Assembly (NCBI RefSeq): GCF_008831285.2
Contig: NC_045139.1
Span: 1,346,204 to 1,410,203 of the forward strand
DNA length: 64,000 bases
DNA from: Nymphaea colorata
Lineage: Eukaryota > Streptophyta > Magnoliopsida > Nymphaeales > Nymphaeaceae
Direction: 5' to 3'
Under the pieces are notes generated by a model that saw only the letters and a program-made list of their open reading frames with translations, had not been told where the DNA came from and did no database searches. Shown here piece after piece: positions 8,241-63,628 of this stretch; position 1 is the first letter of the stretch; each line of letters opens with the position of its first letter. The position numbers and the translations under genes are program-made.

Positions 8241-8663
8241 TTAGTTTACAAATGCAGAGATAGGAAATGATCGGGAAATCCCAGTATGCGTCTTAAACTG
8301 GATATTCCCAGAAATCGAGTTATCCACCAGCAGTTCAGAGACTCCAATCCAGAGGAGCAGTTCCTTTGCTTTTACGCCTGTCACCTTCATCATCCGCTGT
8401 GGCTCGATGAATGCAGTGATTTCTGCAGCAAAGGGGACACTCCTGCTAATCTGCTCGAAGTAATGGTCCTTCTTCTTCTTCTGTCTGAGCCATATGAAAC
8501 CCTCGGATCGTACCACTCCAATCTCGACTATGTTGTCGAGAGGGAGAAGTCCCCTTGGTATACAAAACTCATCGAGAAGCTGGTTTGCTTTCTTTTGGCA
8601 CTCCATCTCCCCTACATAAATCTCAGCTCCCTCCCTCATGGAATCAATCACTTGAGAAACCAT
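8241..8663 (-). CDS. DUF538 protein, copy 1 (group C)
   Basis: This intronless gene encodes 140 residues. DUF538 is a plant family of small proteins whose known structure resembles the lipid-binding fold of BPI; the Arabidopsis member SVB affects trichomes and growth, and the biochemical role is not settled. There is no signal peptide or membrane segment, so it is probably cytosolic. Family landmarks are IPRGLLPLDNIVEIG, EGFIWLRQKKKKDHYFEQ, AAEITAF, VTGVKAKELLLWIGVSE and the C-terminal GISRSFPISAF. Group C marks are CQKKANQLLDEFCIPRG, IGVV and NSISGNIQF. It differs from the array consensus at EPQRMMKV (usually EPRRMKKV) and SELLVDN. The start is the conserved MVSQ. A minus-strand TATA box lies at 8741-8734 and a P1 module at 8957-9033. 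Nearest relative in the window: the damaged copy at 45.3-45.75 kb. Confidence 0.9.
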   Translation of the reverse strand: MVSQVIDSMREGAEIYVGEMECQKKANQLLDEFCIPRGLLPLDNIVEIGVVRSEGFIWLRQKKKKDHYFEQISRSVPFAAEITAFIEPQRMMKVTGVKAKELLLWIGVSELLVDNSISGNIQFKTHTGISRSFPISAFVN

Positions 8664-8733
8664 TTTGATCCCTCTCTCTATTTCTCTTTGAGTGCACTAA
8701 CAGGTCAATGAGGAATTTGACGTCTGGAAGTCA

Positions 8734-8741
8734 TATTTATA
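8734..8741 (-). promoter_or_regulatory. TATA box of DUF538 copy 1
   Basis: TATAAATA on the minus strand, about 70 bp before the ATG at 8663. It is embedded in the sequence CATATAAATATG shared with several other copies. Confidence 0.75.
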
Positions 8742-8956
8742 TGCAAATGTTTGGTACTAACAGGTCATCTCTCTCTCTCTCTCTCCCCCCTCCCTCCATA
8801 TGACAAGCTGGCACGGGGCATGCAGATCTTCATTAATTTCATTAGTGATCAGGAGAAACGTACCAGTTACTTTTCATTCTTCTCTGGAAAAAGTGAAGGC
8901 CGCCATCAAGAACGAATGTTGGTGCATTTAATGTATTTGATATACTTTCGGTTCTA

Positions 8957-9033
8957 GCTTAAATAGGCAGGCCAATTTGAAGCACTGCATGCACGAGATG
9001 GCTGGTGCTAGCTGCACATGGCTTAGTCAATTC
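8957..9033 (-). promoter_or_regulatory. P1 upstream module of copy 1
   Basis: A divergent form of the array's P1 module. In plus-strand reading it is AAATAGGCAGGCCAATTTG, a short spacer, then GCACATGGCTTAGTCAATTC. It sits about 290 bp upstream of the start codon. Confidence 0.55.
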
Positions 9034-15843: not shown

Positions 15844-16266
15844 ATGGTTTCTCAAGTGATGGATTCAATGAGAGAAAAGGCTGAAATTTATGTAGGAGAA
15901 GCAGAGTGCCAAAAGAGAGCCATCCAGCTCCTTGATGAGTTCGATATCCCCAGAGGGCTCCTCCCTCTCGACAACATAGTGGAGATCGGGTTAGTCCAAT
16001 CTGAGGGCTTCATTTGGCTCCGGCAGAAGAAGAAGAAGGACCATTACTTTGATCAAATTGGTCGGAGTGTTTCATTTGCTGCAGAAGTCACGGCATTCAT
16101 TGAGCCTCGTCGGATGAGGAAGGTGACTGGAGTGAAGGCAAAGGAGCTCCTTCTCTGGATTGGGGTCTCCGAGATGTTGGTGGATAACTCAAATTCTGGG
16201 AACATCCAATTTAAAACACATACTGGGATTTCCCGATCATTTCCTGTTTCAGCATTTGTAATCTAA
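15844..16266 (+). CDS. DUF538 protein, copy 3 (group A)
   Basis: This encodes 140 residues in a single exon and is the tandem twin of copy 2. Distinctive residues are EAECQKRAIQLLDEFDIPRG and HYFDQIGRS, where other group A copies have EFN and HYFEQ. The C terminus SFPVSAFVI is shared only with copy 2. An in-frame ATG lies just 3' of the TATA box (about 15741), probably upstream of the transcription start, so I choose the conserved MVSQ start. The leader from TATA to ATG is almost identical to that of copy 2. Confidence 0.93.
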   Translation: MVSQVMDSMREKAEIYVGEAECQKRAIQLLDEFDIPRGLLPLDNIVEIGLVQSEGFIWLRQKKKKDHYFDQIGRSVSFAAEVTAFIEPRRMRKVTGVKAKELLLWIGVSEMLVDNSNSGNIQFKTHTGISRSFPVSAFVI

Positions 16267-17430
16267 CAAGGAGGGTGACAAGAAGTGAAATGAAATCATG
16301 AAGGCTTTAATTTGTGACGATTTTTCAATCACGGGTTTTGCTTTCTTTATTTTTTATTCTAATCTACTATGTATACGTTTCTTTCTTTGGCAATAAGTGA
16401 AATGAATATTTATGATTCACATAAAGCTGTTACTCGATTGGTGAAATTTTCTCATTCATGATGTGAATATTTTAAAAACTTCAACCAAGTATATAAGTGG
16501 CGATTAGAAATATAAAATACAATATTCAAATGTATTCTGTAGTCTATCTTCTCACACGGAAGTTTTGAAACTGAATCCAGATCCAATGATGTCCTTGTCT
16601 GATCTCTTTCTCCGTATTAAATCACAACAAAGGAAAAGCAATTGCCATCAGATTTAATGTCATGATAAATTTCTCTACAATGCTGCAACTTTACCAATTG
16701 TTTATCACATTTTCAAACGAAGGGCCGCAAGCATCAAGTCCAAAAATAATTCACAAATGTGATCATTTAGACTCCCAAAATCAATTTGAAACTTTTTAAC
16801 ATTCTGAAAGTTCTTTGTAAAACCAGTTTACTTGGATGTCAAAACTGTACGTAGAACTAAAAAGAAAAAATCAACGCGGAACTAAAATTTCTAAACTGAC
16901 TACAATAAGCTGATGGAAACATATAGAACGTTATTACATAGGACTTCTGAAGGGTGGATTCAGTAACGATTGAACATATTTCTTCATTCTTGGGCACATC
17001 AGGATGTGCATCATTTTGGTTGCTCGAAATGATGATGCTAAATTAGGGCCTGATCAAATCATCTGCCTTTTAAAGACTCAGAAGAGGATGAGGAGTAGTT
17101 GATGGCCGATCATGCACATTATCGTGGTCTTTTTTTGTTAAAAATTCTTAATCACCAACGTTCGAAGTTGCTGGCAATTCATTTTAAAGACTAGAAGTAG
17201 ATGAAGAGTCGTTGATGGCAAATCATGATACTTATCAGAATCCTTTTAAGTTCTTAATCACCAAAGTTCGGGAGTTGTTGCAACGTGTACTGGATGGGCA
17301 TTTTAGTCTTTGTCATGAAAAGGTAAAATTTTTATATTTTTGTCCTTATACAAGCTTTCTCTCTTCATCACTTTGTTCACTTGCAGATGTTTAGGTTTTG
17401 CCTCTACAATATTGTACAATTTAATCGGAT
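16267..17430. other. Spacer after copy 3
   Basis: This holds the 3' flank in common with copy 2 (CAATAAGTGAAATGAATATT) and an AT-rich stretch. It also carries two short units with AAAGACTCAGAAGAGGATGAG and TTCTTAATCACCAA, duplicated at about 17065-17160 and 17190-17335. No gene was seen. Confidence 0.5.
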
Positions 17431-17548
17431 GAAGTGTACCGATTGCATTCCTTTATGGTCAGGTTTCTGCACCAAAAAAAGGAAAACCATTAAGAATGAA
17501 CGTGAAAGATCATGAAATGCATGCATGTCATGTGCAGATATATGTGGT

Positions 17549-17625
17549 ACTTGAATAGGTTGGCCAACTTGAAACGATTGCAGGAGATGACCCATGCTAT
17601 CTGCACATGGCCTAGTCAATTCTTC
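17549..17625 (-). promoter_or_regulatory. Orphan P1 module
   Basis: TTGAATAGGTTGGCCAACTT then TGACCCATGCTATCTGCACA and TGGCCTAGTCAATTC. It is oriented for a minus-strand gene, but no DUF538 gene follows to the left. Confidence 0.55.
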
Positions 17626-18242
17626 CTACAGCACTTAGTTCTCAAATTCTTCTTTTGTTTCACGCCCATGCATGCATGCTAATTATACATAACTCTGTTT
17701 CCTCTCTCTCTCTCTCTCCTTCTCTCTCTCTCTATATATATATACGTACATACATACATGTAACACAAATGAATTGATATACAAGACGAGAATTTGGCTA
17801 TGTCCAAATGTTCGAAAAACGATGATGAGTTAATAGAAGACGATAGAACCACCTGAAAATATCATGTCCTGCTTCATACAATCATCTTTGAAGTTTGAAC
17901 ATCTAAAAGTTTCTAAGATGCGCCATCATGCACAAGAATGACATTTGTTTTGGGTTGTTCAATCCCTTGCGACGTTCTCTTTCAATTGAGCTTGACATTA
18001 ATTCCATGCATGGGTGCATCATCTATGGTGGAATTGACAAGGGCAAGTGCAACATGTGCCAATCAGTTGGATGCAATTAATATTTCAACTGGACGTGGTT
18101 ATCTTGATCACGTATCTGGTCATGGATAATCAACATCCACCCAACTACCTGGGAATCACAAACTTGGGAAGCTCCACTGCCTTACTTTATTTGGCTAACT
18201 AAATTGATCTGCTGCAGCTTGATCACAACTTCAGACTTTGTT

Positions 18243-18245
<3 letters not shown>

Positions 18246-18278
<33 letters not shown>
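18246..18278 (+). repeat. (GA)n microsatellite
   Basis: A GA run after CTTTGTTGGGT. The same position holds GA runs in the two sister blocks (25203-25226 and 34927-34964), with different lengths. Confidence 0.9.
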
Positions 18279-18279
<1 letters not shown>

Positions 18280-18618
18280 GTTATTGTCATGCATGGACCA
18301 GTACTTTACTTATAAGCGCAATTGCTTTAAGCCAATTGAAGTTAGCCTGGACCGCTCAGTAAATGCAATTACTTGTTCAATACAGGCAAAGAATTGACTA
18401 AGCCATGTGGGTAGCTAACATGGGTAGCATCTATTGCGATAGTTTAAGTTGGTAGACAATTCATGCATTCAGGACTCTCAAGCATAGTCTTTACTGAACA
18501 ATATTGTGGCCTTAATATCTTCATCAACTAATTTGGCAATCTCAAAAGTCTTTACTGAACAATATTGTGGCCTTAATATCTTCATCAACTAATTTGGCAA
18601 TCTCAAATGATTAGAGAC

Positions 18619-19150
18619 TAAGCCTGGGCATCGGGCCCGGGTCCAGGCTGGGAAAAACCTGGCCCAGGCAGGGCCCGATAGGCTGGCCCGGCGGCGGCCT
18701 GGCCCGGCCCGACTCCCGACTCCCGCCCTCCGTCCCCCGCTCCCCCTCCTTCTGTCCTCCTCGTCTCCGCTCCCGCTCTCCCTCTCCGTTCCCCCTCTCC
18801 CTCCTCGTCTCCGCTCCCGCTCTCCCTCTTCGTTCCCCCTCTCCCTCTCCCTCTCCCGCTCTCCCTCTCCCTTCCCATCTCCCTCTCCCTCTCCGCTCCC
18901 TCCCCCCTCTCTCTCCCTCTCCCTTCCCGTCTCCCTCTCCGCTCCCCCTCCTCCTCTGTCGCCGTTGCTGCAGTCGGCGGAGACCCAACGCCATAGCCGG
19001 AGGGCGACGGGAGGGCGGGGAGAAAGGGGGTCGGGAGGGGGAAAGGGCGTCGGGAGGGCAGGGTGAAGCTATTGGGCCGGGCCCGAGCCTGGCTGAGCGG
19101 CCCGACGGGCCGGATCGGGCCGGCCCAGCCTGGCCCGATACCCACCCTTG
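18619..19150. mobile_element. GC-rich non-autonomous hAT-type element, 532 bp
   Basis: The ends form imperfect 19-bp inverted repeats: left TAAGCCTGGGCATCGGGCC, right (reverse complement) CAAGGGTGGGTATCGGGCC, with 15 of 19 matching. The flanks are 8-bp direct repeats, TTAGAGAC (18611-18618) and TCAGAGAC (19151-19158). The sister blocks at about 25495 and 35245 show the empty site, with a single TATCAGAGACC. An 8-bp duplication and YAAG termini fit hAT elements. The interior is CT-rich low-complexity DNA with no transposase, so the open frames on the minus strand are not genes. Confidence 0.75.
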
Positions 19151-19345
19151 TCAGAGACCCATATCTATACACCTTCGGCCCGACGGGCCGGCCTAGCCTG
19201 GCCCGATACCCACCCTTGTTACCCACCCTTGTCAGAGACCCATATCTATACACCTTCGGCCCGACGGGCCGGATCGGGCCGGCCCAGCCTGGCCCGATAC
19301 CCACCCTTGTTACCCACCCTTGTCAGAGACCCATATCTATACACC
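19151..19345. repeat. Tandem triplication of the element's right end plus host flank
   Basis: The host flank TCAGAGACCCATATCTATAC begins at 19151, 19232 and 19323 (spacings 81 and 91 bp). Between the copies lies GC-rich sequence (GGCCCGACGGGCCGG) ending in CCCGATACCCACCCTTG. The duplicated unit thus joins transposon end and target DNA, which happened after insertion. Confidence 0.8.
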
Positions 19346-19752
19346 TTGAAAATGATCGGTACATTTCACTTTACTAAGAAAGGGTTCTGGGCCTCAATGT
19401 TAACCAAATAACAATTTAGAAGAATAAACATTAATTATGAATGCAAAGAGCCGACTATATATTAGGCTGATAACATGATAACCTCTATCCTTCTGATTTC
19501 CAAGGAATTAATACATTTCGTGAAAGTGGCATTGCATGTGTTTTCAGAAAAACTGTGAAGGTGTCATGTACTGTATGACCAAAAAGCCTATGTCAATTGT
19601 TGAAATTCATAAAGAACTTAATATCATTTTTAGAAAGCTAAGCCATAAAAACCTAATATATTTAGTACACAGGCACTCCTGATCACCCAGCCTAATCTAA
19701 TAACTAGTAATAATCTTTCGTGCAGGTCTTTTGTCTCTTAATTTCCTATGCT

Positions 19753-19778
19753 CCCCCCCCCCCCCCCCCCCCCCCCCC
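19753..19778. repeat. Poly-C tract (26 C)
   Basis: An uninterrupted run of C in the upstream region of copy 4. The sister blocks have no such run at the corresponding place. Confidence 0.9.
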
Positions 19779-19836
19779 ACAACACAAAAAATAAAAATGG
19801 CTTGATTTTTGTGTTTGTTACGGTTGTTGTTGTATT

Positions 19837-20103
19837 ATATGGCTGCCATGTTTCCAGCGCGACTGTAAGAGTTTGTGCATTAATTCTTACAATTTGAATC
19901 AGTCACGGCCAACCAACACGATGCTGAAAGTTTGTTCTCAAGGCTACTACCTTCTTTTTACGTGGGCTTCAAAAGTATAAGTGCAGTGCATGACCTTTAA
20001 CTCGTGTGCTCTTACAACTTGCTACCCTGCACCCGTGCAGCTCACTAGGTAATCAAAATTAATGGGTAGATATTCGAACATGGCAACTTGACTGGCGGCC
20101 GCC
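19837..20103 (+). promoter_or_regulatory. P2 upstream block of copy 4
   Basis: The block runs from ATGGCTGCCATG through CAGCGCGACTG, TTTGTGCATTAATTC, CACGGCCAACCAACACGATG and CTGAAAGTTTGTTC to GAACATGGCAACTTGAC. It is shared with copies 5, 7 (twice) and 13. It ends about 240 bp before the ATG. Confidence 0.6.
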
Positions 20104-20229
20104 GGAAGAGAGGGAGAGTAGCTTTGTCGAGTCCCATAGTTAGATGACAATGAAAGCGACTGATACATATTCAACGTGACCAAGGGAAGAGAGTATGAGA
20201 GATTAGGATAGAAGGCAAACCATGGTTGC

Positions 20230-20237
20230 TATAAATA
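20230..20237 (+). promoter_or_regulatory. TATA box of DUF538 copy 4
   Basis: TATAAATA in GTTGCTATAAATATGC, the P2-class core promoter, about 110 bp before the ATG. Confidence 0.8.
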
Positions 20238-20339
20238 TGCTTAGAAGCTCCCGATTTCTTCACCAAATCAAAGAATTAGTTCACTTATCTGGAGAGAGTG
20301 AGAGAGAGAGAGAGAGAGAGGAACAGGGAGACAGAGAAA

Positions 20340-20762
20340 ATGGTTTCTCAAGTGATCGATTCGATGAGAGAAAAAGCTGAAATTTATGTAGGAGAAACAG
20401 AGTGCCAGAAGAGAGCTATCCAGCTGCTTGACGAATTCAATATCCCCAGAGGACTCCTCCCTCTCGACAACATAGTCGAGATCGGGTTAGTCCAATCTGA
20501 GGGCTTCATATGGCTTCGGCAGAAGAAGAAGAAGGACCATTACTTTGAGCAAATCGGGCGGAGTGTTTCATTTGCTGCAGAAGTCACGGCATTCATTGAG
20601 CCTCGTCGGATGAAGAAGGTGACCGGAGTGAAGGCAAAGGAGCTTCTTCTCTGGATTGGGGTCTCGGAGATGTTGGTGGATAACTCTAATTCCGGGAACA
20701 TCCAATTTAAAACACATACTGGGATTTCCCGATCATTTCCTGTTTCAGCTTTTGTAAACTAA
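20340..20762 (+). CDS. DUF538 protein, copy 4 (group A coding sequence in P2 flanks)
   Basis: This encodes 140 residues in a single exon. The protein belongs with group A (ETECQKRAIQLLDEFNIPRG, EIGLVQSEG, EQIGRSVSFAAEVTAF). Its promoter, its leader (TTCACCAAATCAAAGAATTA, TTATCTGGAGAGAG) and its 3' flank are of the class otherwise joined to group B genes. The last codons GCTTTTGTAAAC (AFVN) also match group B rather than the GCATTTGTAATC of copies 2 and 3. The junctions lie close to the ATG and just before the stop, as expected if a group A tract replaced a group B reading frame. All family landmarks are intact. The GA-rich leader directly precedes the ATG. Confidence 0.93.
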   Translation: MVSQVIDSMREKAEIYVGETECQKRAIQLLDEFNIPRGLLPLDNIVEIGLVQSEGFIWLRQKKKKDHYFEQIGRSVSFAAEVTAFIEPRRMKKVTGVKAKELLLWIGVSEMLVDNSNSGNIQFKTHTGISRSFPVSAFVN

Positions 20763-20839
20763 AAAATGAGAAAAAAAATTGAAGGAGTCGTGAAAATTAT
20801 GATAAACTTTTGTAATATTCATATTTTTTTCTTTTTGTC

Positions 20840-21072
20840 TAAATATGTGGCTTTACATCATAATGGAAAAGAAGCTTGATATTCTAGTTCATTGAGTTTG
20901 AGCTGATGATGGTAGCACCATTGCACCAAAGTCTAACAGAAGTACGCAATTCGCTGTTAATTCTTGAGAAATTCTCAAATTTATGTAACATTAATTCGAC
21001 ATAGTTTCAACCTTTCCTTCAATCAACTGTTTTTTTCCCTCTATCTTTTATCTTAGATGTAACTTTTTGCCT

Positions 21073-21112
<40 letters not shown>

Positions 21113-23720
21113 AGCTTTTTACAGCCTTTAAAACTTCATGGTTGCTGCACTAAGTAGGCAAGATGCAGTTGGAAGATTTCGCCGAGGTCATGAGATGATA
21201 ATGAAGGTTAACATTAACGCTACGACCCTCCAATCGACTATCACATGCATAATCCCATTCTTCAATTGACGGAAGGACCAACTTCAAAGTAATTTCACAA
21301 ACAATTAAAAATCAAATGTTCGAGCTCTTTTATAAAGATGTTCTTGAGACCTGAAAATTAATTTATTAAACCAGTTTATTTTGAAGTCAAAATTGTGCTT
21401 AAAAGAAAAAAGACAACTAAAATTTTGAGATTTATGAACAGATTGTCATTTAATAGGTGCGTGGATGGATCAAGCTTCACTCTCCTATATCCTTAGATTG
21501 TAAGATACATCCATATGAGCAACTGTATATTAATCTGACTTTTAAGAAGTTGATTGACCAAAAGTGTGCGTTGCATCCGGTCCATTCTTCATTAAATGGC
21601 TGGCAGCCAAACCACCAAAAATGCTGTTCTTTAACCAATGCAAAAATGGCTACCTTTTCTTGTGGATACTTTTCTGTGAATACAGTTATGATGAACCAAA
21701 ATCCAAGAGTGATGCTTGAATAAAATGTAACTTGCTCGATCAAGATTGAAGTAACTTTCTTTTGCAAACTGCATATTTTTATCAATCTGTTAGGAAAATT
21801 ATTCTAACGTGACAATATATGAGCTGCTAGTCATGTTGATTGAACAGATCAATGTGGTTGCTTCAGTTACCTGCGCTGAACACATGGTCAGTTTGGCACT
21901 TGAAAATGAGAGCTGAAAAGGTCTTGCTTTGAATCTAGACAACAATCACTCTGCCTTGTGTAAGATTAATTGGATACTAGTTTTCAGCGTCAGTTTCGAT
22001 CACAGTTTTTGCCTTATGACTTGGTTTTGTACACCTTCACGTACGTCATGACAGCTATACTAAGCATATTGATATTGTTGGAAGATTTGACAAGATCATG
22101 TTACGGCAAGCTTATTGAATCAAGTTAAAGCACGTTGAGACATCTGTAAGCACTTGAAACTGAGGAATTAAAGATTAAGAGGAGATTAAGCTTGATAAGC
22201 CATCTGTGAGTTCAAATTTCATATTACAGTCTCAAATTCAATTTTAAAGAAAATATATAGAGAACATTATGCAAATCTCCTCTAATCCAAGCACGAAAGT
22301 CTGCTGGAGACATCTACTATTCATCTGTAGGAACAAGAACATAAGTTGGTTGTCATGAGCGGTCAAAATTCTCCCTCGCTGATTCTCTGCAATAAGCTGT
22401 TATTTTCCAAATTAACTTCATATATCCAGAATTCTATAATGAAAAGAATGTGAGTTTTTCTGATCTACCTCAAGTCTGTGGCATCTGCTTTCTTTTGCCT
22501 TTGCCCTGTTTTACTCTGTTCTTCTCTGCTTCTCACAAAACTTAGTGAATCAAATCTCTAGATGACTTATGTGAAAAGACTGTCACTTGCAAGTCAGAAG
22601 CACTTCTGAACCTCTAACCCATTCTCTTGCACACGAAGCAGTAAACCAATTAATTGTCTAACTTTCTGGTTTCAAAACTCTGTTATGAATGTTTTAGTTA
22701 CTAAAACAAGCCCAAACAAGCTGAAGCAAGCCTAGTACCCCCCAATTAATGAATTACAACAAGCTTTTTACGCTGAGTACAAGCAAAGCCGCGATCGGCT
22801 CGTCTTGTTTCTGAGCCTCAGCTTTAACTGCATCATGCAACTTGAATGAGACTAATTAATGACTTTGTTCTAATTTGGAAAGGTGATCAGCATCTACTCA
22901 ACCACCTGAACACCATAAACTTGAATGCTGTTCCCTGGACCAGGGAGCTGGCACAGATTGATGAGTAACTTGTCTGGTATTGCCGACCTCATTATATTTA
23001 TTTTAAATAAATAGGAGAGAGTAGGAAATAGAGAGAGTAAATGAGGAAGCCATGTAGATGAGTTGACCAAATAATACTGGCACTAATTATTTATAGGCAT
23101 CGAGATCTACTGCAACTCTGTAAAGTGCCTCACTGATGGAATAATTAACTAGGCCATGTGCAGATAGGGATGCACCATACAGTCACATGATTTATGAACA
23201 CTGCATCTGCAGTTTGATGATTGGAATTTGTCAAGGACACTTTCATACGCAGTGAATTCTTAATTCCTGGTCAATCTTCTTCGTATTTGTATGGGGAGAT
23301 AACCAGGCTATTTTCCTTCAACAATTGGCAAATGGAAGGAGTGGATTGATACTTACTGAGTTAATCAAACTGATGTTTCTGTCTTAGCAGAGAGAAGATT
23401 CTGCGTGATTTGGCTTTATTATGGCACACTCTCTGTCTTTGGACATTCATATGGTAAGAATTAGACATAATATGCTCTCTCCCGCGATATAGGATATGCA
23501 TGGTTATCTAAAGCATGTTATGGTTCATGAAGAACTTGAAAAGAAAATCAAGCACGAGGGAAGGCATACGAGTTGCAGAGCCATTAATGCCTACAGCGAC
23601 TTGTTTTCTGCCTATTTCTGATGGCAAGAGGGCGTCTAGAAACAAGCTATTGCACACTGAGTCCGACCAAGCTGGCGCCATCCTAATGGGCCGTAAAAGT
23701 TAAATTTTAAATCAACCTAC
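20840..23720. repeat. Spacer unit R3, copy 1
   Basis: This spacer is collinear in parts with 30720-33720, 46720-47720 and 57990-59880/60660-61100. Markers include GGAAGATTTGACAAGATCATG, ACCAAAAGTGTGCGTTGCAT, TAAGATTAATTGGATACTAG, CAACAAGCTTTTTACGCTGAG and AAGCATGTTATGGTTCATGA. Open frames at about 21457-21785 exist on both strands in this and the second unit and look like by-products of duplication. A (TA)n tract lies at 21075-21109. Confidence 0.65.
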
Positions 23721-24068
23721 CTTTGATGTCCAAATTGCACTTGCAAGAACTAAAAAAAAAGCTTAATGTACTAATATTTCTGAAATTGGTAAACAGGAAT
23801 TCATCAAATTAATAAATAATAAGCTGAAGGAGGAAAGTTTACTTTTCTAAGCTTTTTTTTATCCTATCCTTTAACACATTCATATAAGAAACTACATGGC
23901 AATATGATTCCTGAAAAGTTGGTTCGCAAAAAATGAGTATCGAAACAGATCAAGTGTACCGATTGCTATCAGATATTGACAGGTTTCTCCGCCAAAAAAG
24001 GAAAACCATGTAGAATGAACGTGAAAGATCATGAACATGCGTGCATGTGATGCAGAGGTACATGTGGT

Positions 24069-24142
24069 GCTTGAATAGGTTGGCCAACTTGCAACGATTG
24101 CACGAGATGATGACCCATGCTATCTGCACATGGCCTAGTCAA
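24069..24142 (-). promoter_or_regulatory. Orphan P1 module
   Basis: TTGAATAGGTTGGCCAACTT, GACCCATGCTATCTGCACAT and GGCCTAGTCAAC, oriented for a minus-strand gene that is absent. Confidence 0.55.
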
Positions 24143-24590
24143 CTTTTCTGACTCTACTTAGTTCTCATAATCTTCTTTTGTTTGATGCCCATGCATGCAT
24201 GCTAATTATACATAACTTTATCCTCTCCCTCTACATACATGTGTACAAACATACATGCATGTAACAAAAATTACTTTGACATACAAGGCAAGCATTTGGC
24301 TATGTCCAAATATTTGAAAAACGATAATGAATTAATAGAAGAAAACATAACCACCTGAAAATATGATGTCTTTCTTCTTACAATGATCTTTGAAGTTTGA
24401 ACATCTGAAAGTTTCTAAGATTCTCCATCATGTACAAGAATGAGATGTCACACTTTATCTGAAACGCTTTTATTTTATGTGCAGTTTCTGCATAAAGCAA
24501 GCACTAAGAGATCAACTCCAATCATGTGCAGCCCACCTCCAAATCTTATAGACTTTGGCCTTTCTTCTTCATACACATTTATTTTAATCA

Positions 24591-24778
24591 AAACCATGTG
24601 AATATCACTTTCTCAACCCAAAACTTTGATAGTTACCCTTTTGGGTGTTCATGCTGCATAAAAGAAGACCATGTGAGTAACTTGTTTTTAATAGGATCAA
24701 AACTAGCTACCAAGATATCATTTGGATCAACTTTGTACATCTAAAAAGTCAAAAGCAGAAATGATATTCACATGGTTT
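24591..24778. mobile_element. Foldback / MITE-like element, ~188 bp
   Basis: The ends are perfect 17-bp inverted repeats (AAACCATGTGAATATCA at the left; TGATATTCACATGGTTT at the right), with partial matching continuing inward. It lies in sequence that differs from the two sister blocks, as expected for an insertion. No clear target-site duplication was identified, so the superfamily is open. Confidence 0.55.
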
Positions 24779-25959
24779 CTGATTAATGTATATATTTTTT
24801 TCCGGTGATATCCGCAAAGGTCAAACACACGGCCGTCGTTGGCGCGGCAAAAAATGCTAAAACTTCTCGAGCAACCCACCTTATTTTAGTAGCTTGCACA
24901 GGGGGTTGACGTTCACGGTAATCACTGCAGAATCGGATTCAGAAAATGTATGATTGTAGTTACTGTTTCCATGCATGGTGTGGCCAAGAAATGACAAAGG
25001 TAGGTGCAGCGTGCGCTAGTCAGTTGGATGCAATAAATATTTCAACTGGGCGTGGTTATCTTAATTGCCTATCTGGTGATGGATAAACAACATCCACCCA
25101 ACTACCTGGGAATCGCAAACTTGGGAAGCTCAACTGCCTTACTTTATTTGGCTAACTAAATTGATCTGCTGCAGCTTGATCACAACTTAAGACTTTGTTG
25201 GTGGAGAGAGAGAGAGAGAGAGAGAGTTGTAATCGCCATGCATGGACCAGTACGTTTCTTATAAGCGCAATTGCTTTAAGCCAATTGAAGTTAGGCTGGA
25301 CCGCCTCATTAAATGCAATTACTTGTTCAATGCAGGCAAAAGAATTGACTAAGCCATGTGGGTAGCTAACATGGGTAGCATCTACTGCGATTGTTTAAGT
25401 TGGTAGACAATTCATGCATTCAGGACTCTCAAGCATCGTCTTTACTGAACAATATTGTGGCCTTAATATCTTCATCAACTAATTTGGCAAACGCAAACTA
25501 TCAGAGACCCGTGTCTGTATACCTTGAAAGTGATTGGTACATTTCACCTGACTAAGAAAGGGTTCAATCAAATAACAATTTAGAAATGAAACCACATTAA
25601 TTATGAATGCAAAGACTAAGAGCCGACTATATATTAGGCTGATAACATGATAACCTATCTCCTTCTGATTTCCAAGGAATTAATACATTTCTGAAAATGG
25701 CCGTGCATCGCAGGTTGCTTTCAGAAAAATTGTGAAGGCGTTGTGGGTCAATACTGTATGACCAAAAGGCCCATGCTAATTGCTGACATTCGTAAAGAAC
25801 TTAGTATCATTTTTAGAAAGCTAAGTCATAAAAACTTAATATCATTTTAAGAAAGCTAAGTCATAAAAACTTAGTATCATTTTTAGAAAGCCAAGTCATA
25901 AAAACGTAATATATATAACAAACAAACACTCCCGATCATCCCGCTTAAACTAATAACGA

Positions 25960-25960
<1 letters not shown>

Positions 25961-26026
<66 letters not shown>
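25961..26026. repeat. (TA)n microsatellite, ~66 bp
   Basis: A long TA run at the place where unit 3 has a short interrupted TA/CA run (35638-35665). Confidence 0.95.
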
Positions 26027-26029
<3 letters not shown>

Positions 26030-26680: not shown

Positions 26681-26799
26681 AGGGAGAGAGCATGAAGAGG
26701 AATTGAGATGGGCCATGTGGAGCACACACTTCAACATGATCGGGGGGAGAGAGAGAGGGAGAGATTAAGATAGAGAAAGCAGACATGGGTGGTAATTGC

Positions 26800-29344: not shown

Positions 29345-29352
29345 TATTTATA
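29345..29352 (-). promoter_or_regulatory. TATA box of DUF538 copy 6
   Basis: TATAAATA on the minus strand, about 105 bp before the ATG at 29241. Confidence 0.8.
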
Positions 29353-45750: not shown

Positions 45751-45851
45751 CGAATCAATCACTTGAGAAACACTCTCCTTTCTCTCTCTCTCTCTGTGTT
45801 CTTCTGTGATGAGCTAGTATGTTAGTGATAAGTTTGCCTCCTTGGTAGCCA

Positions 45852-46199: not shown

Positions 46200-46622
46200 A
46201 ATAACTCTGAAAATAATTTGATATGCAAGACAAGCATTTGGCTATGTCCAATGATAATAAATTAATAGAAGAAAATAGAACCACCTGAAAATACGATGCT
46301 TCGCTTCTTACAATAATATTTGCAGTTTGAACAACTAAAACTTTCGAAGATGCACCATCATCTACAAGAATGAGATGTCGCACTTCCACCATTTATTTTC
46401 GGTGGTTCAATTCCTTTCGACGTTCTCTTTTAATTTATATTGAAATTAATTCCATGCATGCGTGCATTATCTATCGTGTGGCCAAGAATTGACAAGGGAA
46501 GGTGCAACATGTCAATTTAATATTTCAACTGGATGTGGTTATCATAATCAAACGTTACTTAGATATCCTGCATAGTGTATGGCCATGAAGAGAGAGAGAG
46601 AGGATTGAGACGAAGAGAGAGA
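46200..46622. repeat. Partial fourth copy of the three-copy block
   Basis: TGATATGCAAGACAAGCATT, CATTTGGCTATGTCC and TTCCATGCATGCGTGCATTA match 17770-18060. The block breaks off at about 46545 and is joined to a GA tract and the truncated DUF538 start. Confidence 0.7.
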
Positions 46623-46699
46623 ATGGTTTCTCAAGTGATTGATTCCATGAGAGAGAGAGAGAGCTGAGATCTTTGTTGGAGAGATTGAGTGCCAAAAGA
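46623..46699 (+). pseudogene. Truncated DUF538 fragment (group B 5' end)
   Basis: It begins MVSQVIDSM, then the GA repeat in codons 10-13 is two codons longer than in sister genes (MRERERAE). It continues EIFVGEIECQK as in copies 7 and 13. After the AAG at 46699 the homology stops and unrelated spacer sequence follows. Only about 28 codons remain, with no TATA box of the usual kind in front. Confidence 0.85.
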
Positions 46700-46719
46700 T
46701 TTCATTTTCAGTCAATCAA

Positions 46720-49623: not shown

Positions 49624-50043
49624 TTACAGAAAAGCTGAGATGGGAAATGATCGGGAAATCCCAATTTGCGTCTTAAAGTGGACATTCCCAGAACTTGAGT
49701 TGTCCACCAGCATTTCAGAGACACCAATCCAGAGGAGGAGTTCCTTTGCCTTCACACCACTCACCTTCTTCATACGGCGTGGCTCAATGAATGCACTGAT
49801 CTCTGCAGCAAACGAGGCACTCCGGCCAATCTGCTCGAAGTAATGGTCCTTCCTCTTCTTCTGCCTGAGCCATATGAACCCCTCGGACCGGACGATTCCG
49901 ACCTCAACTATGTTATCGAGAGGGAGAAGTCCCCTTGGGATACCAAACTCATCAAGCAGTTGAATCGCTCTTTTCTGGCACTCTATCTCACCAACATAAA
50001 TCTCAGCTCCCCCTCTCATGGAATCAATCGCTTGGGAAATCAT
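49624..50043 (-). CDS. DUF538 protein, copy 11 (group D)
   Basis: This encodes 139 residues in a single exon on the minus strand. It starts MISQAIDSMRGGAEIYVGE. Group D marks are EFGIPRG, WLRQKKRKDHYF, AAEISAF, KKVSGVKAKELL, SSSGNVHFKTQIGISRSF and the shorter end FPISAFL. Private changes are VEVGIV and RSASFAAE. Group D is the most divergent group in the array. The nearest relative is copy 14, with eight residue differences. Its minus-strand TATA-like box is 50155-50149. The distance from it to the P1-like module is unusually long (about 0.9 kb). Confidence 0.92.
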   Translation of the reverse strand: MISQAIDSMRGGAEIYVGEIECQKRAIQLLDEFGIPRGLLPLDNIVEVGIVRSEGFIWLRQKKRKDHYFEQIGRSASFAAEISAFIEPRRMKKVSGVKAKELLLWIGVSEMLVDNSSSGNVHFKTQIGISRSFPISAFL

Positions 50044-55385: not shown

Positions 55386-56099
55386 TTCTAACATGCACAC
55401 ACTCACCAAACATTAGTGTGAAGTTGCAATGGCTAAGTTGGAGGCCATGTTAGCTATGACATGGACCAATTGCTTCTCCCCAGTGGCAAAGCCAGAATTT
55501 TTTGGTTAAGAGGCACTCGAGTCAACATGTGCCAATCAGTAGAATGCACTCAACTAGTCTTTTATTCTACTCAACTAGTCTTTTAGATAATCAAAACAAC
55601 TACTTTGCTTTTCAATTTGCAACTTAATTTGTACTGCCGGTCTCTTGAAATTGATGACCTAAATGATTCCTCTAGTGCCTATATTTTCCTATATATGCCA
55701 AAACTTTTATGTAAAGCAATTTTTTAAATCCAACGTAAGGAATGTCATGTACGTCTGATTTGTTTAGAAAGGATGAGCTTTAGAGTTGCTTCAGTGCAAA
55801 AGGATTGTAAAAATTTCTCTGGTAATATGGATAGATTGGCAGCTAAAAGTGCATCGTATTTTATGGGCTCAAAAATTAATCCAGCTATAAGCTTTTCTGT
55901 TTGAAGCACAACCTCCCTTAAGCAATTTGGTGCTGCTTGACATTGTTGTCCTGAACTAAACTTAGATGACCAATTCCGAGTAGTACTGCACATGCACAAA
56001 AATTTTGGAGATAAATGTTTTATGGTTTCTGTCCCTTTTAAATTTCCGGTTGCTTTTTCCCCCATGACTTAATTATTATGTTTGTAACGTTTTCCTTGA
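55386..56099. other. Spacer between divergent copies 12 and 13
   Basis: Contains AGTGGCAAAGCCAGAATTTTT near 55480, a fragment of the same repeat type as at 44.1-44.4 kb. The part 55690-55930 matches the segment before P2 in the other group B units (CTTTTATGTAAAGCAATTTTT and CACAACCTCCCTTAAGCA; compare 26050-26260). No gene was seen. Confidence 0.5.
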
Positions 56100-56400
56100 T
56101 TTATATGGCTGCCATGATTCCAGCGCGACTGGAAGAATTTGTGTATTGATTCATACAAATCCAATCGCAGTCAGGGGCCAACCAACACGATGCTGACAGT
56201 TCATTCTGAAAGTTGCTAGATGCTGCCGATAGTGGTTGATGAAAGGAGAGTTTGTCACGTATTTACACTCTCCTCACATGGATGATGGACTTTCCAAACA
56301 TTACCTTTCTTGTAATGTGTATGCTCTTACAACTTGCTATTCTGTAACCATACAACTCATTGAGTAATCAAAATTTATGGGTAGAGATCCGAACATGGCA
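56100..56400 (+). promoter_or_regulatory. P2 upstream block of copy 13
   Basis: ATATGGCTGCCATGATTCCA, GCGCGACTGGAAGAATTTGT and GGGGCCAACCAACACGATGC, then GTAATCAAAATTTATGGGTA and GAACATGGCA. It is more diverged than the P2 blocks of copies 5 and 7. Confidence 0.55.
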
Positions 56401-56557
56401 GAGAGAAAGAGAGAATAATTCACAAAGGCCATGTGGGGGCAGAAAATAGGTTTGGCAAGTTGACAATTAGATGACAACGAAAGCAACTCATACGCTTCAA
56501 CGTTATCAGGAGTGGGGAGGAAGATGGATTAGGATAGCAAGCACAAACCATGTTTGC

Positions 56558-56565
56558 TATAAATT
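56558..56565 (+). promoter_or_regulatory. TATA box of DUF538 copy 13
   Basis: TATAAATT in TTGCTATAAATTATGC; one base differs from the TATAAATA of the sister genes. About 100 bp before the ATG. Confidence 0.75.
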
Positions 56566-56658
56566 ATGCTTAGGAGCTTGCGAATTCTTCACCAAAAAAA
56601 ATAGTTCACGTATCTGCAGTGAGAGAGAGGCACACAGACAGAGAGACGGAGAGAGAGA

Positions 56659-57081
56659 ATGGTTTCTCAAGTGATTGATTCCATGAGAGAGAGAGCTGAG
56701 ATCTTTGTTGGAGAGATTGAGTGCCAAAAGAAGGCAATCCAAGTCCTTCATGAGTTCAGTATCCCAGGGGGACTCCTCCCTCTAGACAATATAGTAGAAA
56801 TTGGTATAGTCCGATCTGAAGGCTTCATATGGCTCCGGCAGAAGAAGAAGAAGGACCATTACTTCGAGCAGATTAGCAGGAGTGTCTCGTTTGCAGCAGA
56901 AATCACTGCGTTCATTGAGCCTCGACGGATGAAGAAGGTGACTGGTGTGAAGGCAAAGGAGCTCCTTCTCTGGATTGGGGTCTCGGAAATGTTGGTGGAT
57001 AACTCAAATTCTGGGAATGTTCAGTTTAAAACACATACTGGGATTTCCCGATCATTTCCTGTTTCGGCTTTTGTATACTAA
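56659..57081 (+). CDS. DUF538 protein, copy 13 (group B)
   Basis: This encodes 140 residues in a single exon. It starts MVSQVIDSMRERAEIFVGE, with QKKAIQVLHEFSIPGG and EQISRSVSFAAEITAF. The first ~345 coding bases are all but identical to copy 7, although the two genes are 19.5 kb apart and their upstream and downstream sequences are clearly more diverged. The end (EMLVDNSNSGNVQF, SFPVSAFVY) differs. This pattern points to a recent sequence exchange between the two genes. The leader contains GA repeats broken by CACACAGACA. Confidence 0.93.
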   Translation: MVSQVIDSMRERAEIFVGEIECQKKAIQVLHEFSIPGGLLPLDNIVEIGIVRSEGFIWLRQKKKKDHYFEQISRSVSFAAEITAFIEPRRMKKVTGVKAKELLLWIGVSEMLVDNSNSGNVQFKTHTGISRSFPVSAFVY

Positions 57082-57990
57082 AAGGACGAGAAAATTGAAA
57101 GTAGTCATGAAAATCATGATAACTTTTGGTGCTCATTTTTTTTTTCTTTTCTTATGAATATATTGTATATGGCTTTTCATCATAAAAGGACAAGTGGCTT
57201 CTTATTCTAACTCGTTGAGTTTGAGCTGATGATGTCAACCACAGTTGCACCGAAGTCTAAGAAGAAAGTTATTCGCTGTCAGTAATTCTTGAGAAATCCT
57301 CAACATTCTATAAGATAAATTCTGTCACCCTGCTTTTGACAAACCAGTTCTGGAATTTATATAAGCTTGATGAAAACAGAACAACACCTTGTCCATCATA
57401 CAGAACCCCTCCTCCCACCCACGAGAAAAAGTTCTATTCTGAAAAAGCTTACACACATCATATCTGTGGTTTCAAATTTGAGAAGAACAAAGAAATTGTT
57501 ATGTTTAACAGTTTAACTCACTGTTGACCTTTTGAATTATAACAGAAAATTTGTATATGTGTCTATTACCTGGGTTCGAATTCCATACATTATATGTTTT
57601 GCATCTGTGCTTAGATGTTGTGATTAAGGTCCCTTATCTCTGAGTTTTACATTGTCAAAGAGGCAACTGCAGGTAATACTAATCTATCACGTCAGGAGTA
57701 CCTGCCACGCATGCACGTCACTGCCAGTTTGTGCGAACAGAGATAAACCAGAGAGCGGAAATGTAGAATGACAGAGCAGAAAGAACAGAGGAAGAACCAG
57801 AACAAGAGAGATAAATGTGCGATGTTCTTCCTTTGTTCTTATCAGAGCCATGGCTCCTTTAGCACCAGAATGGTCTTCACAGTTTCTTCGTTGTTAGAAA
57901 AGATGTGCTGGTGAAAAGATTTTATTACAGGTAAATAATCAAGTTACCGAGTGCGTATGATTCAGCACAGTTTTCTGCGAAGATTACAAA
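57082..57990. other. 3' flank and spacer after copy 13
   Basis: The 3' flank (GACGAGAAAATTGAAAGTAG, TCATGATAACTTTTG) matches that of copy 4. The part 57340-57670 resembles the region 29900-30140 and 40200-40460 (AAACCTTGTACAAATCCCAT type, GAGAAGAACAAAGAAATTGT, AGAGGCAACTGCAGGT). No gene was seen. Confidence 0.5.
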
Positions 57991-59934
57991 AACAAAGAGA
58001 CAATCGGCCATCAAAACTTTAGTGTTGTTGGATTTTGTTTAAGCGCAACTACCTGCACTAACATGAACTCATGCATACAGGCAATTTTGTGCTTGAAAAT
58101 GTGATTTCTTCCAACTTTTGCCCAGCTTCCCACCAAGACAGTAGGAGTTTCGGCATCTATAGAAATTTTCATCTAATAATTTAGTCGTAAATCTAATTCA
58201 ACTTTAATGTGGATATTTTTTTAATGCAAACGGTTAAGATGAATCAGAATGTCCAGAAGTGAAGCATGAACAATAAAATGAAACTCGCTCGAGATTGAAA
58301 GCAACTTTTTGCAGTCAAACCGCTTATATTGTTGTCAATCAGTTCGTAAAATTATTTCTGACGTGACAATCGATGAGCTGCTAGTCATGTCGATTGGACA
58401 GATCATTGTGGTTGTTTCAGTTGCCGGCGCTCATCACATGTTCAGTTGTGCACTAGAACTGAGAGCTGAAGAAGTCTTGCTTTGAATCTAGAGAACCACC
58501 ATTGTGCTTTGTGTAAGATTAATTGGATACTATTTTTCAGCGTCTGTTTAAATCACTTGGAGTTTTCCATTGTTCTTAGCTGAAGATATTTTCCTTATAA
58601 CCTCGTTTGGTACAACTTCAAATACTTCATGACAGCTACCTAAGCATGCTATAGTCGGAAGATTTGACAAGGTCATGTGCAACACATAGGCTAGCAGGAT
58701 GATATTGAAAGTTAACAAGAACTGGTTGGCCTTGATACTTTTGATTATTAGGGGAGTCTCACTTCACCAAGGATGACCGTGCGGGCAGCAAAAGCTTGAA
58801 AGCAATTGACGTGATGATCACCGTTACTAATTCGGATGTATCCACCATTAATTTTACACGGTTGGGCATGCGTTGTAACCAGGGCCAGGAAGGGATTCGC
58901 TTCAAAAAAAAATAACAGAGAGAATCTCAACTACATATGATTGGGTAAATGAGAGGAACAAGCTAAGCTTCGGTGCAGCTTGGCCTGTTCTCTGCAAGCT
59001 GATCCAAGCTCAACCTATAAATCAATCAATTAAAGCCAGCCAAGGCTTGTGTGCTTGCAATCAAGCAACTAAGTTTGGAATCAAAGGCATGGTCGAGCAA
59101 TCTTATGAGTACTTGAAACCGAGTACCGAAAGACTCAGGGGAGGTTGAACTCGATAGAAAAGTCATCTCGAATCCAAATTTCTGAAATTCTCCTCTCTTC
59201 CAAGCTCGAGGATTCTCTGAAGACATCTGCTATTCATGTGTCGTTGTTATAATCGAGCTGTCCAAATTCTCTCTCGGAGATTATCTGTCGTGAGCTGTTC
59301 ATAACAAACTCTATATATTCGGAGTTCTATAATGAAAGGAAAGCGAGCTTTTCCTGGTCTGCCACATGCCTGTGGCATCTGCTTTCATTTTCCTTCGCTC
59401 TGTTTTGCTCTGTTTTACTCTGCTTCCTGCGGGGCTTTATTGAGTCAATCCCTGTATAACTCGTGTCGAAAGACTTTTCATTTGGAAACTAGAAACGCAG
59501 TTAAATATCAAGAGCTATTCACTTCCACAAGAAGCACTCCAATTAATTGTCTAACTTTATGGTATAAAACCACCACGATGAACAAATTAGTTACTAAAAG
59601 GATTAAACAACCTCAATTAAGCAAGCCCTTATCCCTGCCATTTGATGGATTACAGGAAGCTTTTTCACAAGCTGAGTACCAAGTAACGCCAAGACCAGCT
59701 CATCTTGTTTTCCCAACCCCAGCTTCAGCTGCATGTTACAACCATGAACGTGATCAATTAATGACTTTGTCATACTTTTGAAAGGTCATCAGCATCTAAT
59801 CAACTGCCTCAATTGATGCAATAGACCTGGAAGCTAAAAGAGATTGATCTGCAACTTACCCCATTATATTATTTTAGATAGATAAATAGATAGATGAGAG
59901 AGAGAAAGAGAGAGAGAGCCGATCAGATGAGAAT

Positions 59935-60660
59935 ATATAAAAATTTGGGGACAAGAAGTCCCCCAGTTACAATAACAAACGCAAAATATAAACAAGAAGA
60001 CGAAATATACAATACAACGCACAATAAAACAAAATAAGAGGGGTGGGGAGAGAGTGGGAAGACGGAGCGGCACAATCACCCAACCATGGACGAAGGACGA
60101 CGTCGTAGCCGAATGACAAAATGTACATCCCCCTACACATGAGGGGTGGGGAGAGAGTGGGAAGACGGAGCGGCACAATCACCCAACCGCGGATGAAGGA
60201 CGACGTCGTAGCCGAATGACAAAATGTACATCCCCCTACACATGAGGGGTGGGGAGAGAGTGGGAAGACGGAGCGGCACAATCACCCAACCGCGGATGAA
60301 GGACGACGTCGTAGCCGAATGACAAAATGTACATCCCCCTACACATGAGGAGCCACAGACTCCGATAGAGAGAAGGTGCACCTGAAGACTGTTGTTGCTC
60401 TCTTTTCAAATGCGCCACCAAGCTGAAATGAGTTACAACCTCTAGACACGACTCCAGGAAACAGTAAGGCGGGAAGAAAGACAAAAGAGGAAAAAAAGAC
60501 GAATGGATGGTGGGTCTGAAAGACGGAAGGGACACTGGTTAGCTAAACTGATGTTAAGACACTGCAAGTGGTCAAAAGTGTTGATGTGGCCAACAAAAGA
60601 AAGCCAAACAAAAGCAGTGACACGAAGAAAAGCACGATGGGACCAAAGGGAATTGAGAGA
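59935..60660 (-). mobile_element. LINE-like 5'-truncated insertion candidate
   Basis: This ~0.7-kb insertion interrupts the R3 spacer. It is bounded by similar purine-rich repeats, GAGAGAGCCGATCAGATGAG on the left and AGAGAGCCGATAAAATGGGA on the right, as a long target duplication would look. On the minus strand its left end reads GGGGGACTTCTTGTCCCCAA followed by an AT-rich tail, a hairpin-type 3' end seen in some plant non-LTR elements. No reverse transcriptase is present. It contains the three 103-bp repeats. Confidence 0.35.
60038..60346. repeat. Three tandem copies of a 103-bp unit
   Basis: Units start at 60038, 60141 and 60244 with GAGGGGTGGGGAGAGAGTGG, include GGACGACGTCGTAGCCGAAT, and end CATCCCCCTACACAT. 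They are almost identical (ATGGACG against GCGGATG in one place). As 103 is not a multiple of three, all minus-strand frames happen to stay open; these are not genes. Confidence 0.95.
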
Positions 60661-61100
60661 GAGAAAGAGAGCCGATAAAATGGGAATGTGAGAGAGTAAG
60701 TGGGGCTGTCATGGAGATGACTTGTGGTAATGACAATGTCTATTGAAGGATTAACTAAGGCAGGGCCAGGTGCAGCTAGGCATAGGCCATACAATCACTA
60801 GATTTATAAAAGCTGCAGTTGCAGTTTGATGATTGTCAGACACTTCCACACACACTCATTCCTAATTGTCCATCTTCTTCGTATGTAATTCCATGGGGAA
60901 GGTAACCAGGCAACTTTCCTTCAAGAATTAGCAAACGGGAGTAGTGGATTAACTTTTCCATTGCTCGACACTTGAACACAAGATCCTTAGAAGCCCATGA
61001 TTCTCTATCTAAGAACGAAGATTAGATCTGCGAAATTTTTCTTCATTTCAACTGAAGATTCTGGACAATCCCCCTTGTTGTGGACATTCACATGGTGAGA

Positions 61101-63208
61101 ACGAGTCAGAATATGCTCTCTCCATCTCTCTCTCGAACTTGGTTATCCATTATAGAATTCCGAGTTTTCTTTACGAAAAAACAGCGGCTAACAGAGACAA
61201 CAATTTCATTTTCATTTGAAACTCTGTTTTTTTTTAACAGATCGAGCTTCTAGAAGACACGGTTTGAGAGTTTGAGGCAACTTCCGGACGTGCTCCCAAC
61301 CAGTTTACCTTTTCGTAAGAAGGTCTCTACCCACTCCGAACTGCATGAGAGTGAGACCAAGGGGTCACCTTAATGGGTCAGAAAGAAAATTCTTGAATCA
61401 ATATGTCTTTGATGTTCAAATTGTACTTACAAGAACCAAAATGCAAAAACAAATACTTTAATGAACAAAAAATTCAGAAATTGGCAAGCAGAAATTCACT
61501 AAAAATAATCTGATGGCATGGAGAAAAAGTTCGATGCTTTTAACTACGTCTACATAGTAAACCAAACCAGATCCATTCTTTCCTTAAATATGCAGCAGCA
61601 TAATAAATTAACTCCTGTTACGCATCAGCATAATAAATTGTGTCCATTTCTCTGTCTCCAATCATTATTAGGTAACAGTGGGCCGGTTGGCCGGGTGCTC
61701 GACAGGCTTCCTGGTACCTGGCCAACCCTGGCCAGTGAAACATGGCCTCAAGCCAGCTCTAAAACTTTTCCGGCTGCCGAGTCGGGCATGCAAATATATA
61801 TATATATATATATAAATAAATATATATATATATATTTATATATATATATATATACACACTTTTCATTATACATATGCACATGTGTTTATATATTAAATTC
61901 ATATGTTTTAAATAGTTTTTATTATAATCCAGTCGGGCAATTTTTTATTTTTCTTTTGGGACGGTGGGGGAAGGGAAACATCGGTTGGGATGCTGCTAGG
62001 GGCTCAATTTTTAATGGTTATCATAATGGTCGCAATAAATTAGATACCAACGTATCCTATTCGTTGGTCGCCCCTACTATTTGATGACAGTAGGCCATTT
62101 CAGCGTTGTCTCCTGACATGAATTCCACGTTGAAACTGTTAACTTTCATTACCACGTTAATTACCAGGTCTACACATGTTTAGAGAGGTTAAAATATCTG
62201 ATTTGCATCGAATATTGGATTGAACTGTTCTGAAAAAATCAGATTAAAAAAGATTCAATATCGAATTAAGAAATCAATTCGCATTTCGGATTTAAGAAAT
62301 GACATCTCATTGAACTTTGTTCAGATATTCGTAATTCTAACTCCGGTTCAAATCGGGTTTAGTTTTTAAATAAATGTTCTATCTCCAATGCTCTTACATT
62401 TTGAAAATGGACCAGATTGAGTTCAAAATTCAAATTCGAGTTGTGACATCAGATTTCAGATTTGGATATAACTTTTTTTGCCCGTTTTAAAATATGTGAA
62501 CATCTAGAAAAACGAGCATATCTAAAAAAACGAGCATGGTTAATAATAAATCCAGTTCAAATCCAATCAGTTGACACGTTCCAAACGGCCTTGGTAAATA
62601 TTATATTAATGCTAGATACGTTACATATATCAAAAGTGGAGGATTTGATCTACAAAAAGGAAATAATCAATTCTATGTGTACTGTGTAGAGCTCATGCAC
62701 AAACCAAAGAGTCTCTCTCTCTCTCTCTTGTGTGTGAAATCGATAGAGCTAGCGCCTGCTTCTTTGTGGATACATACCAACGATGCAAAATGCAAATTTT
62801 GATTATTTTTCAGGAATTTCGTAGCAAATTTTATTTTGAACTTCGGCAATGATGGTTGGCAAATAAACTGCATTCACGTAGAGAATGAAACCCCACGACT
62901 TTTTCCTCAGACATAAAAGAGAGCCGAGCAAACGGGAAGAAGATGCATTAAACGAAAGAGTTGACGATCAGCCGTCACCAACATATTACAAAATTCTGCC
63001 AAAGAAAGAAAACAATGACAGGTCGGAGAGGGAGAAGCGAGAAAAGGAAAGTAGAGAGAAGAAGAGAGGAGTCATCAGCCAAACGCATGCAGCGACCACC
63101 GGAAAGCGCACTTATGACATCAAAGGGAGACAATCCTGCATCTTCATAAGGCCAAAAAAGGATGACAAAGTTTCATGAACTTCTTCTCTAGCCATCTTAA
63201 TTTCCAGT
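61101..63208. other. Spacer before copy 14
   Basis: Contains a GC-rich patch at 61675-61790 (GGGCCGGTTGGCCGGGTGCT), a long (TA)n tract at about 61795-61855, and repetitive AAATTC/GATTT-type DNA at 62190-62480 resembling 7120-7330. The stretch 61980-62180 is similar to 48180-48370 upstream of copy 11's 3' flank, consistent with a shared group D unit. No gene was seen. Confidence 0.5.
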
Positions 63209-63628
63209 TTACAGAAATGCTGAGATGGGAAATGATCGGGAAATCCCAATTTGCGTCTTAAAGTGGACATCTCCAGAACTTGAGTTATCCACCAGCATTT
63301 CAGAGACTCCAATCCAGAGCAGCAGCTCCTTTGCCCTCACTCCACTCACCTTCTTCATCCGGCGTGGCTCGATGAATGCACTGATTTCTGCAGCAAACGA
63401 GACACTCCGGCCAATCTGCTCGAAGTAATGGTCCTTCCTCTTCTTCTGCCTGAGCCATATGAACCCCTCAGACCGGACTAATCCGATCTCAGCTATGTTA
63501 TCAAGAGGGAGAAGTCCCCTTGGGATGCCAAACTCATCAAGCAGTTGGATCGCTCTTTTCTGGCACTCTATCTCACCGACATAAATCTCAGCTCCCCCTC
63601 TCATGGAATCAATCGTTTGAGAAGTCAT
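63209..63628 (-). CDS. DUF538 protein, copy 14 (group D)
   Basis: This encodes 139 residues in a single exon on the minus strand. It starts MTSQTIDSMRGGAEIYVGE; the T at residue 2 differs from the V or I of all other copies. Group D marks are EFGIPRG, QKKRKDHYF, AAEISAF, VSGVRAKELL, SSSGDVHFKTQIGISRSF and the FPISAFL end. Private changes are DNIAEIGLV (A for V) and SGDVHF. The TATA-like box is at 63712-63706, and a P1-like module at 63886-63965 lies at the usual distance, unlike in copy 11. Confidence 0.92.
   Translation of the reverse strand: MTSQTIDSMRGGAEIYVGEIECQKRAIQLLDEFGIPRGLLPLDNIAEIGLVRSEGFIWLRQKKRKDHYFEQIGRSVSFAAEISAFIEPRRMKKVSGVRAKELLLWIGVSEMLVDNSSSGDVHFKTQIGISRSFPISAFL

Follow-up and report, generated by a model that had tools for sequence, protein, structure and literature searches.

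Plant DUF538 proteins are reported to affect trichomes, growth and abscisic acid (ABA) responses, and two reports concern resistance to a wilt fungus or to a leafhopper (PMC8268597, PMC10459309, PMC13415095, PMC12861476), the former involving a cotton member (PMC13415095) and the latter a tea member (PMC12861476). For Arabidopsis SVB, which lacks a signal peptide, binding of the phosphoinositides PI(3)P and PI(3,5)P2, induction by ABA or endoplasmic reticulum (ER) stress and a role in trichomes have been reported, as have a requirement for ER-stress tolerance and, for trichomes and growth alike, redundancy with SVB2 (PMC8268597). The ASD proteins carry a signal peptide, are encoded in tandem pairs and are reported to have opposite effects on ABA sensitivity (PMC10459309), and the BPI-like, esterase and lipocalin-like roles of DUF538 are proposals (PMC10661777). 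Here we describe an array of DUF538 genes of Nymphaea colorata in a stretch of 64,000 nt without a single N (contig NC_045139.1, positions 1,346,204 to 1,410,203), referred to as the window.

Tandem DUF538 genes are already known, and the present array is a larger example, ordinary in kind. Like the six Arabidopsis SVBs (SVB At1g56580, SVB2/SVBL At1g09310 and SVB3-6), its proteins combine a DUF538 domain, a length of about 140 residues and an N-terminus that does not resemble a signal peptide, but the Arabidopsis genes occupy scattered loci, as judged by gene number, whereas at least 14 copies lie within 55 kb here. The array resembles Arabidopsis ASD1-ASD4 in that DUF538 duplicates lie in tandem and have been maintained as functional genes, although the ASDs have signal peptides, belong to a clade apart from the SVBs and form two pairs only (PMC10459309). 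In four cotton species, with 37, 37, 70 and 70 DUF538 genes, the family likewise grew by duplication, with tandem events described as ubiquitous, yet the tetraploids carry at most five members per chromosome, compared to 14 in 55 kb in the water lily (PMC13415095). The wheat cluster FRGC 29 is also a paralogous DUF538 cluster and is reported to be co-expressed after Fusarium (PMC8018971). In the open-access literature searched, mostly at the level of listings, no DUF538 array of this size was reported, and, as judged by title, no report on DUF538 gene conversion was on topic. Local gene families of this sort are common in plants, where gene conversion within tandem arrays is also well known, and the most interesting part of this locus is that coding sequence and promoter are uncoupled. 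We favor, with a probability of roughly 0.6, the interpretation that the locus comprises a local array of SVB-type DUF538 genes, most of them working, kept for dosage and divided expression, with occasional exchange of coding sequence.

The copies were counted by tblastn, with five DUF538 copies used as queries against the window. This returned 14 near-complete copies between 8.2 and 63.6 kb, seven on each strand, the same number at the same coordinates as in the sequence-only reading that preceded this analysis. All 14 proteins matched PF04398 (DUF538) at E ≤0.001 (best 1.8e-30), with Pfam scores for four copies of 95-102 over residues 27-138 against a gathering cut-off of 25. In 13 copies the ATG is present and the intronless frame of 139-140 codons runs without interruption by a stop, as described earlier; the remaining copy, C10, has indeed lost its start, as had been noticed, and counts 142 codons instead. 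The window ends 372 bases beyond C14 and the right end of the array lies outside it, so that 14 copies is a minimum. The DUF538 copies are:

8241-8663, minus strand: C01, 140 residues
11147-11569, plus strand: C02, 140 residues, tandem duplicate of C03 at ~4.7 kb
15844-16266, plus strand: C03, 140 residues
20340-20762, plus strand: C04, 140 residues, mosaic with coding sequence as in C02/C03 and flanks as in C05/C07/C13
26926-27348, plus strand: C05, 140 residues
28819-29241, minus strand: C06, 140 residues, convergent with C05
37156-37578, plus strand: C07, 140 residues, identical to C13 over 187 nt from ATG-3
39079-39501, minus strand: C08, 140 residues, convergent with C07
42753-43175, plus strand: C09, 140 residues
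45346-45774, minus strand: C10, 142 codons, ATG lost
49624-50043, minus strand: C11, 139 residues
54601-55023, minus strand: C12, 140 residues
56659-57081, plus strand: C13, 140 residues
63209-63628, minus strand: C14, 139 residues

Comparison of the DNA from -370 to -46 in all 91 pairs of copies revealed upstream homology in 21 of them and three clear groups, consisting of C02/C03 (starting at 11147 and 15844), C04/C05/C07/C13 (20340, 26926, 37156 and 56659) and C06/C08/C09/C12 (28819, 39079, 42753 and 54601). A loose fourth group, C01/C10/C11/C14 (8241, 45346, 49624 and 63209), is held together only by TATA-box matches of 28-66 nt that do not extend to every pair, and a few short upstream matches (16-60 nt) cut across groups. 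Overall this is close to the four groups A-D with distinct promoters proposed in the sequence-only reading, three of which come out clearly while the fourth is loose. Within 300 nt before the start, TATAAA occurs exactly once in every copy, at -78 to -126. Matches to an ACGT core were found within 500 nt upstream of five of the 14 copies (C04, C05, C07, C13 and C14); their reading as an ABA-response motif was dropped because the aligned ACGT site is not kept in C13.

The tree of coding sequences agrees with the upstream groups for 13 of the 14 copies, the exception being C04; that coding group and promoter group sometimes disagree had been missed before. On both sides the flanks of C04 match those of C05, C07 and C13 at a divergence (K) of 0.13-0.38, and no long match to the flanks of C02/C03 was found in either the self-comparison or the upstream comparison. 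The coding sequence of C04, by contrast with its flanks, joins C02/C03 in the tree with support of 98/96, and its silent divergence (dS) is 0.24-0.27 to C02/C03 vs. 0.76-0.82 to C05/C07/C13. At the sites separating C02/C03 from the flank-mates, C04 sides with C02/C03 in 30 of 35 cases, and forcing it together with the flank-mates costs 25.9 log units and is rejected by the approximately unbiased (AU) test (p-AU 0.0004). As far as comparison of the sequences can tell, C04 makes a good case of coding-sequence replacement. The second candidate is the pair C07 and C13. One of their first 300 coding bases differs, compared to 26 of the 60 that precede the ATG; divergence in the flanks is ~25%, while the stretch of 187 bases from ATG-3 is identical. 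For calibration, the C06/C08 pair, a simple duplicate, shows a dS of 0.078 that matches a flank K of 0.080-0.083. The C07/C13 pattern, too, is probably due to coding-sequence replacement.

A number of observations weigh against the favored interpretation. Exchange inside the coding sequences was not detected by a test of the pairwise homoplasy index (PHI) type (p 0.13), nor by a run-length test, with smallest global p values of 0.24 (all sites) and 0.67 (silent sites); for C07/C13 the run-length test gave a pair p of 0.008 and a global p of 0.78. A clade of C05 and C07 is not rejected (p-AU 0.085), which leaves the contrast with the flanks as the basis of the C07/C13 case, and the AU test of C04 was chosen after its flank pattern was known and is the significant one of three. 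Some copies carry unique changes at otherwise invariant columns (four each in C10 and C09, three in C01). Moreover, the assignment of the copies to the SVB type would follow from their length, the lack of a signal peptide and a resemblance to SVB proteins that we presume, and the biochemical role of the array proteins would be carried over solely from relatives. Keeping in mind the tests inside the coding sequences, none of which finds significant exchange, and the 13 of 14 copies that group alike by coding sequence and upstream DNA, one could explain the locus by plain birth-and-death without any coding exchange, the patterns of C04 and C07/C13 being put down to unequal rates, strong constraint on the coding sequence and chance. 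We consider this explanation unlikely, as the silent distances of C04 contradict its flanks threefold or more (p-AU 0.0004) and constraint cannot explain why silent sites are identical in C07 and C13 while those of C06/C08 track their flanks. A proposal that goes together with occasional coding exchange is that different promoters feed one protein, that gene conversion, confined to the coding sequence, continually rewrites copies toward this common protein while the promoters diversify, and that in C04 the coding sequence of one group came in this way to lie under the promoter of another; this is possible, though we hold it tentatively and at clearly less than even odds.

At the protein level, the ratio of replacement to silent divergence (dN/dS) has a pairwise median of 0.085 and is above 1 in none of the 91 pairs, pairwise identity is 81-97%, and 86 of the 142 alignment columns never vary. 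Along the terminal branches of six sister pairs, 41 of the polarised changes were replacements and 68 were silent, with 13 more left unpolarised; a site ratio of ~3.5:1 would give far more replacements, and we count this deficit as support for constrained coding sequences. In a neutral simulation with 0.08 changes per site placed uniformly, 28% of frames stayed open; open frames are therefore weak evidence for recent copies, and we relied on dN/dS instead. Cumulatively, the copies look mostly functional. The clustering of variable positions in the first third of the protein and at its final residue, where the groups differ, and the opposite ABA-sensitivity effects reported for tandem DUF538 pairs of Arabidopsis (PMC10459309) would be in keeping with selection for protein diversification toward new ligands or partners, but the purifying selection, the invariant columns and the high identity given above make this improbable and leave the earlier suggestion of ligand diversification unsupported. 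One lost ATG, one fragment and one tail duplicated at a junction are what might be expected if the array were partly an assembly artefact or consisted mostly of decaying copies. This we regard as very improbable, given that 13 of 14 frames retain their ATG and are free of stops, that even the most similar pairs differ at a dS of 0.078 and that the longest exact repeats in the window measure 187 nt (direct) and 89 nt (inverted). With copies diverged throughout, no N in the window and no longer exact repeat, an assembly duplicate is argued against, and an artefact as the source of the copies is unlikely, judging from the single assembled sequence.

Returning to the favored interpretation of a maintained array with occasional coding exchange, unequal exchange between units together with smaller duplications would have enlarged the array, and gene conversion may occasionally have copied coding sequences from gene to gene, holding one protein almost unchanged as several types of promoter persisted. 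By hydropathy only, none of the 14 copies has a signal-peptide-like stretch (maximum 10-residue hydropathy mean of 0.52-1.11 in the first 40 residues); in this they have the SVB trait of an N-terminus free of a signal peptide and lack the signal peptide of the ASDs. A DUF538 relative, At5g01610, has a solved structure (1ydu), and the fold is reported as BPI-like; a predicted structure was too weak for use. By analogy with published relatives, SVB-type proteins may be cytosolic or membrane-associated and bind phosphoinositides or lipids, and the array might supply dosage and divided expression in epidermal or trichome growth or in ABA and stress responses. An array in which 14 or more copies are constrained and have promoters of their own offers a natural test of whether copies are retained for dosage or for division of expression, and the swapped coding sequence of C04 allows promoter and protein effects to be told apart.

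The earlier claim of a local expansion is borne out by repeated units within the window. Self-comparison shows segments recurring in the order p-q-r-gene(-gene)-u-v, which is common to units 1, 2 and 3 and, in part, to units 4 and 5:

17421-23578: unit 1, holding C04 and a GC-rich insert
23943-33427: unit 2, with the convergent pair C05/C06
33813-40753: unit 3, with the convergent pair C07/C08
45896-47954: unit 4, shortened, with a 5' fragment at the expected position of the gene
56022-61134: unit 5, holding C13

In addition, C02 and C03 sit within a smaller duplication of 4.4-4.8 kb. Read from these repeats, the array is one that expanded via duplication of units of ~5-10 kb and via smaller events. 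Silent divergence is 0.08-0.38 within the promoter-like groups, 0.32-0.57 between the C02/C03/C04 set and the C06/C08/C09/C12 set, and 0.50-1.31 between deep groups; compared to 0.08 in the youngest pairs, the last range indicates that the groups split much earlier than the last duplications took place. With plant rates in common use (6.5e-9 to 1.5e-8 per site per year), an age of a few million years would follow for the youngest pairs and one of several tens of millions of years for the deepest. The GC-rich insert, ~0.8 kb long (~18547-19319) and confined to unit 1, contains repeated GGCCCG-type motifs and looks like a non-autonomous mobile element. Upstream of C07, at 35862-36830, a stretch of ~400 bp is tandemly duplicated with a shift of 562 bp and 85% identity.

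In C10 the ATG is replaced by AGT and two extra lysine codons are present. This copy is changed at four columns that are invariant in the other 13, the lost start among them, and its next in-frame methionine, Met9, precedes the start of the Pfam domain (near residue 27). C10 is a candidate for an early pseudogene, or else for a protein with a shorter N-terminus started at Met9. The truncated copy and the duplicated tail of the sequence-only reading were both recovered as sequence matches:

near 46607-46700, plus strand: 5' fragment of a C07/C13-type copy, frameshifted
37594-37694, plus strand: DUF538 3' tail present in duplicate, lying at a duplication junction

The 5' fragment is 94.6% identical to C13 (56659) over 93 nt, its frame broken by four added bases (GAGA). 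The duplicated tail shares 91.5% over 94 nt with the own tail of C07 and 90.2% over 102 nt with that of C05. Homology to the C07 lineage stops at 37586, and a C05-like tail and downstream DNA start at 37594 and remain collinear to 38825; by this alignment, the duplication junction is at the 3' end of the C07 gene. Opposite C01 and C10, long antisense frames lie on the plus strand (8286-8711, 141 codons, and 45391-45825, 144 codons, respectively) that have no Pfam match and probably reflect the codon content of the sense frames.

All 29 other open reading frames (ORFs) of at least 90 residues in the array region were scanned against Pfam and none reached a gathering score, weak matches at E 0.016-0.1 being treated as chance; at this sensitivity and for ORFs of this size, the earlier statement that no other gene lies between the copies holds. 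The window contains no transfer RNA gene and no Rfam match at the gathering threshold. Searches with C06 for prokaryotic or viral relatives yielded 37 stretches fitting the pattern in a collection of non-plant contigs and one in viral contigs, none of which was confirmed; as the collections searched are without plants, these negatives are uninformative on plant relatives. Two other genes are present in the window:

52-753, plus strand: end of an AKT-like K+ channel gene with ankyrin repeats and a KHA domain, matching AKT5 at E 3.5e-27
between 1563 and 5500, minus strand: GH47 mannosidase gene, three ORFs matching PF01532 (Pfam)

They lie tail to tail within positions 1-5500, both to the left of the array. 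The array is consequently not bracketed by them, contrary to the earlier description of a locus flanked by the channel and the mannosidase gene, there labelled MNS3, and the two genes are usable as anchors for comparison across species.

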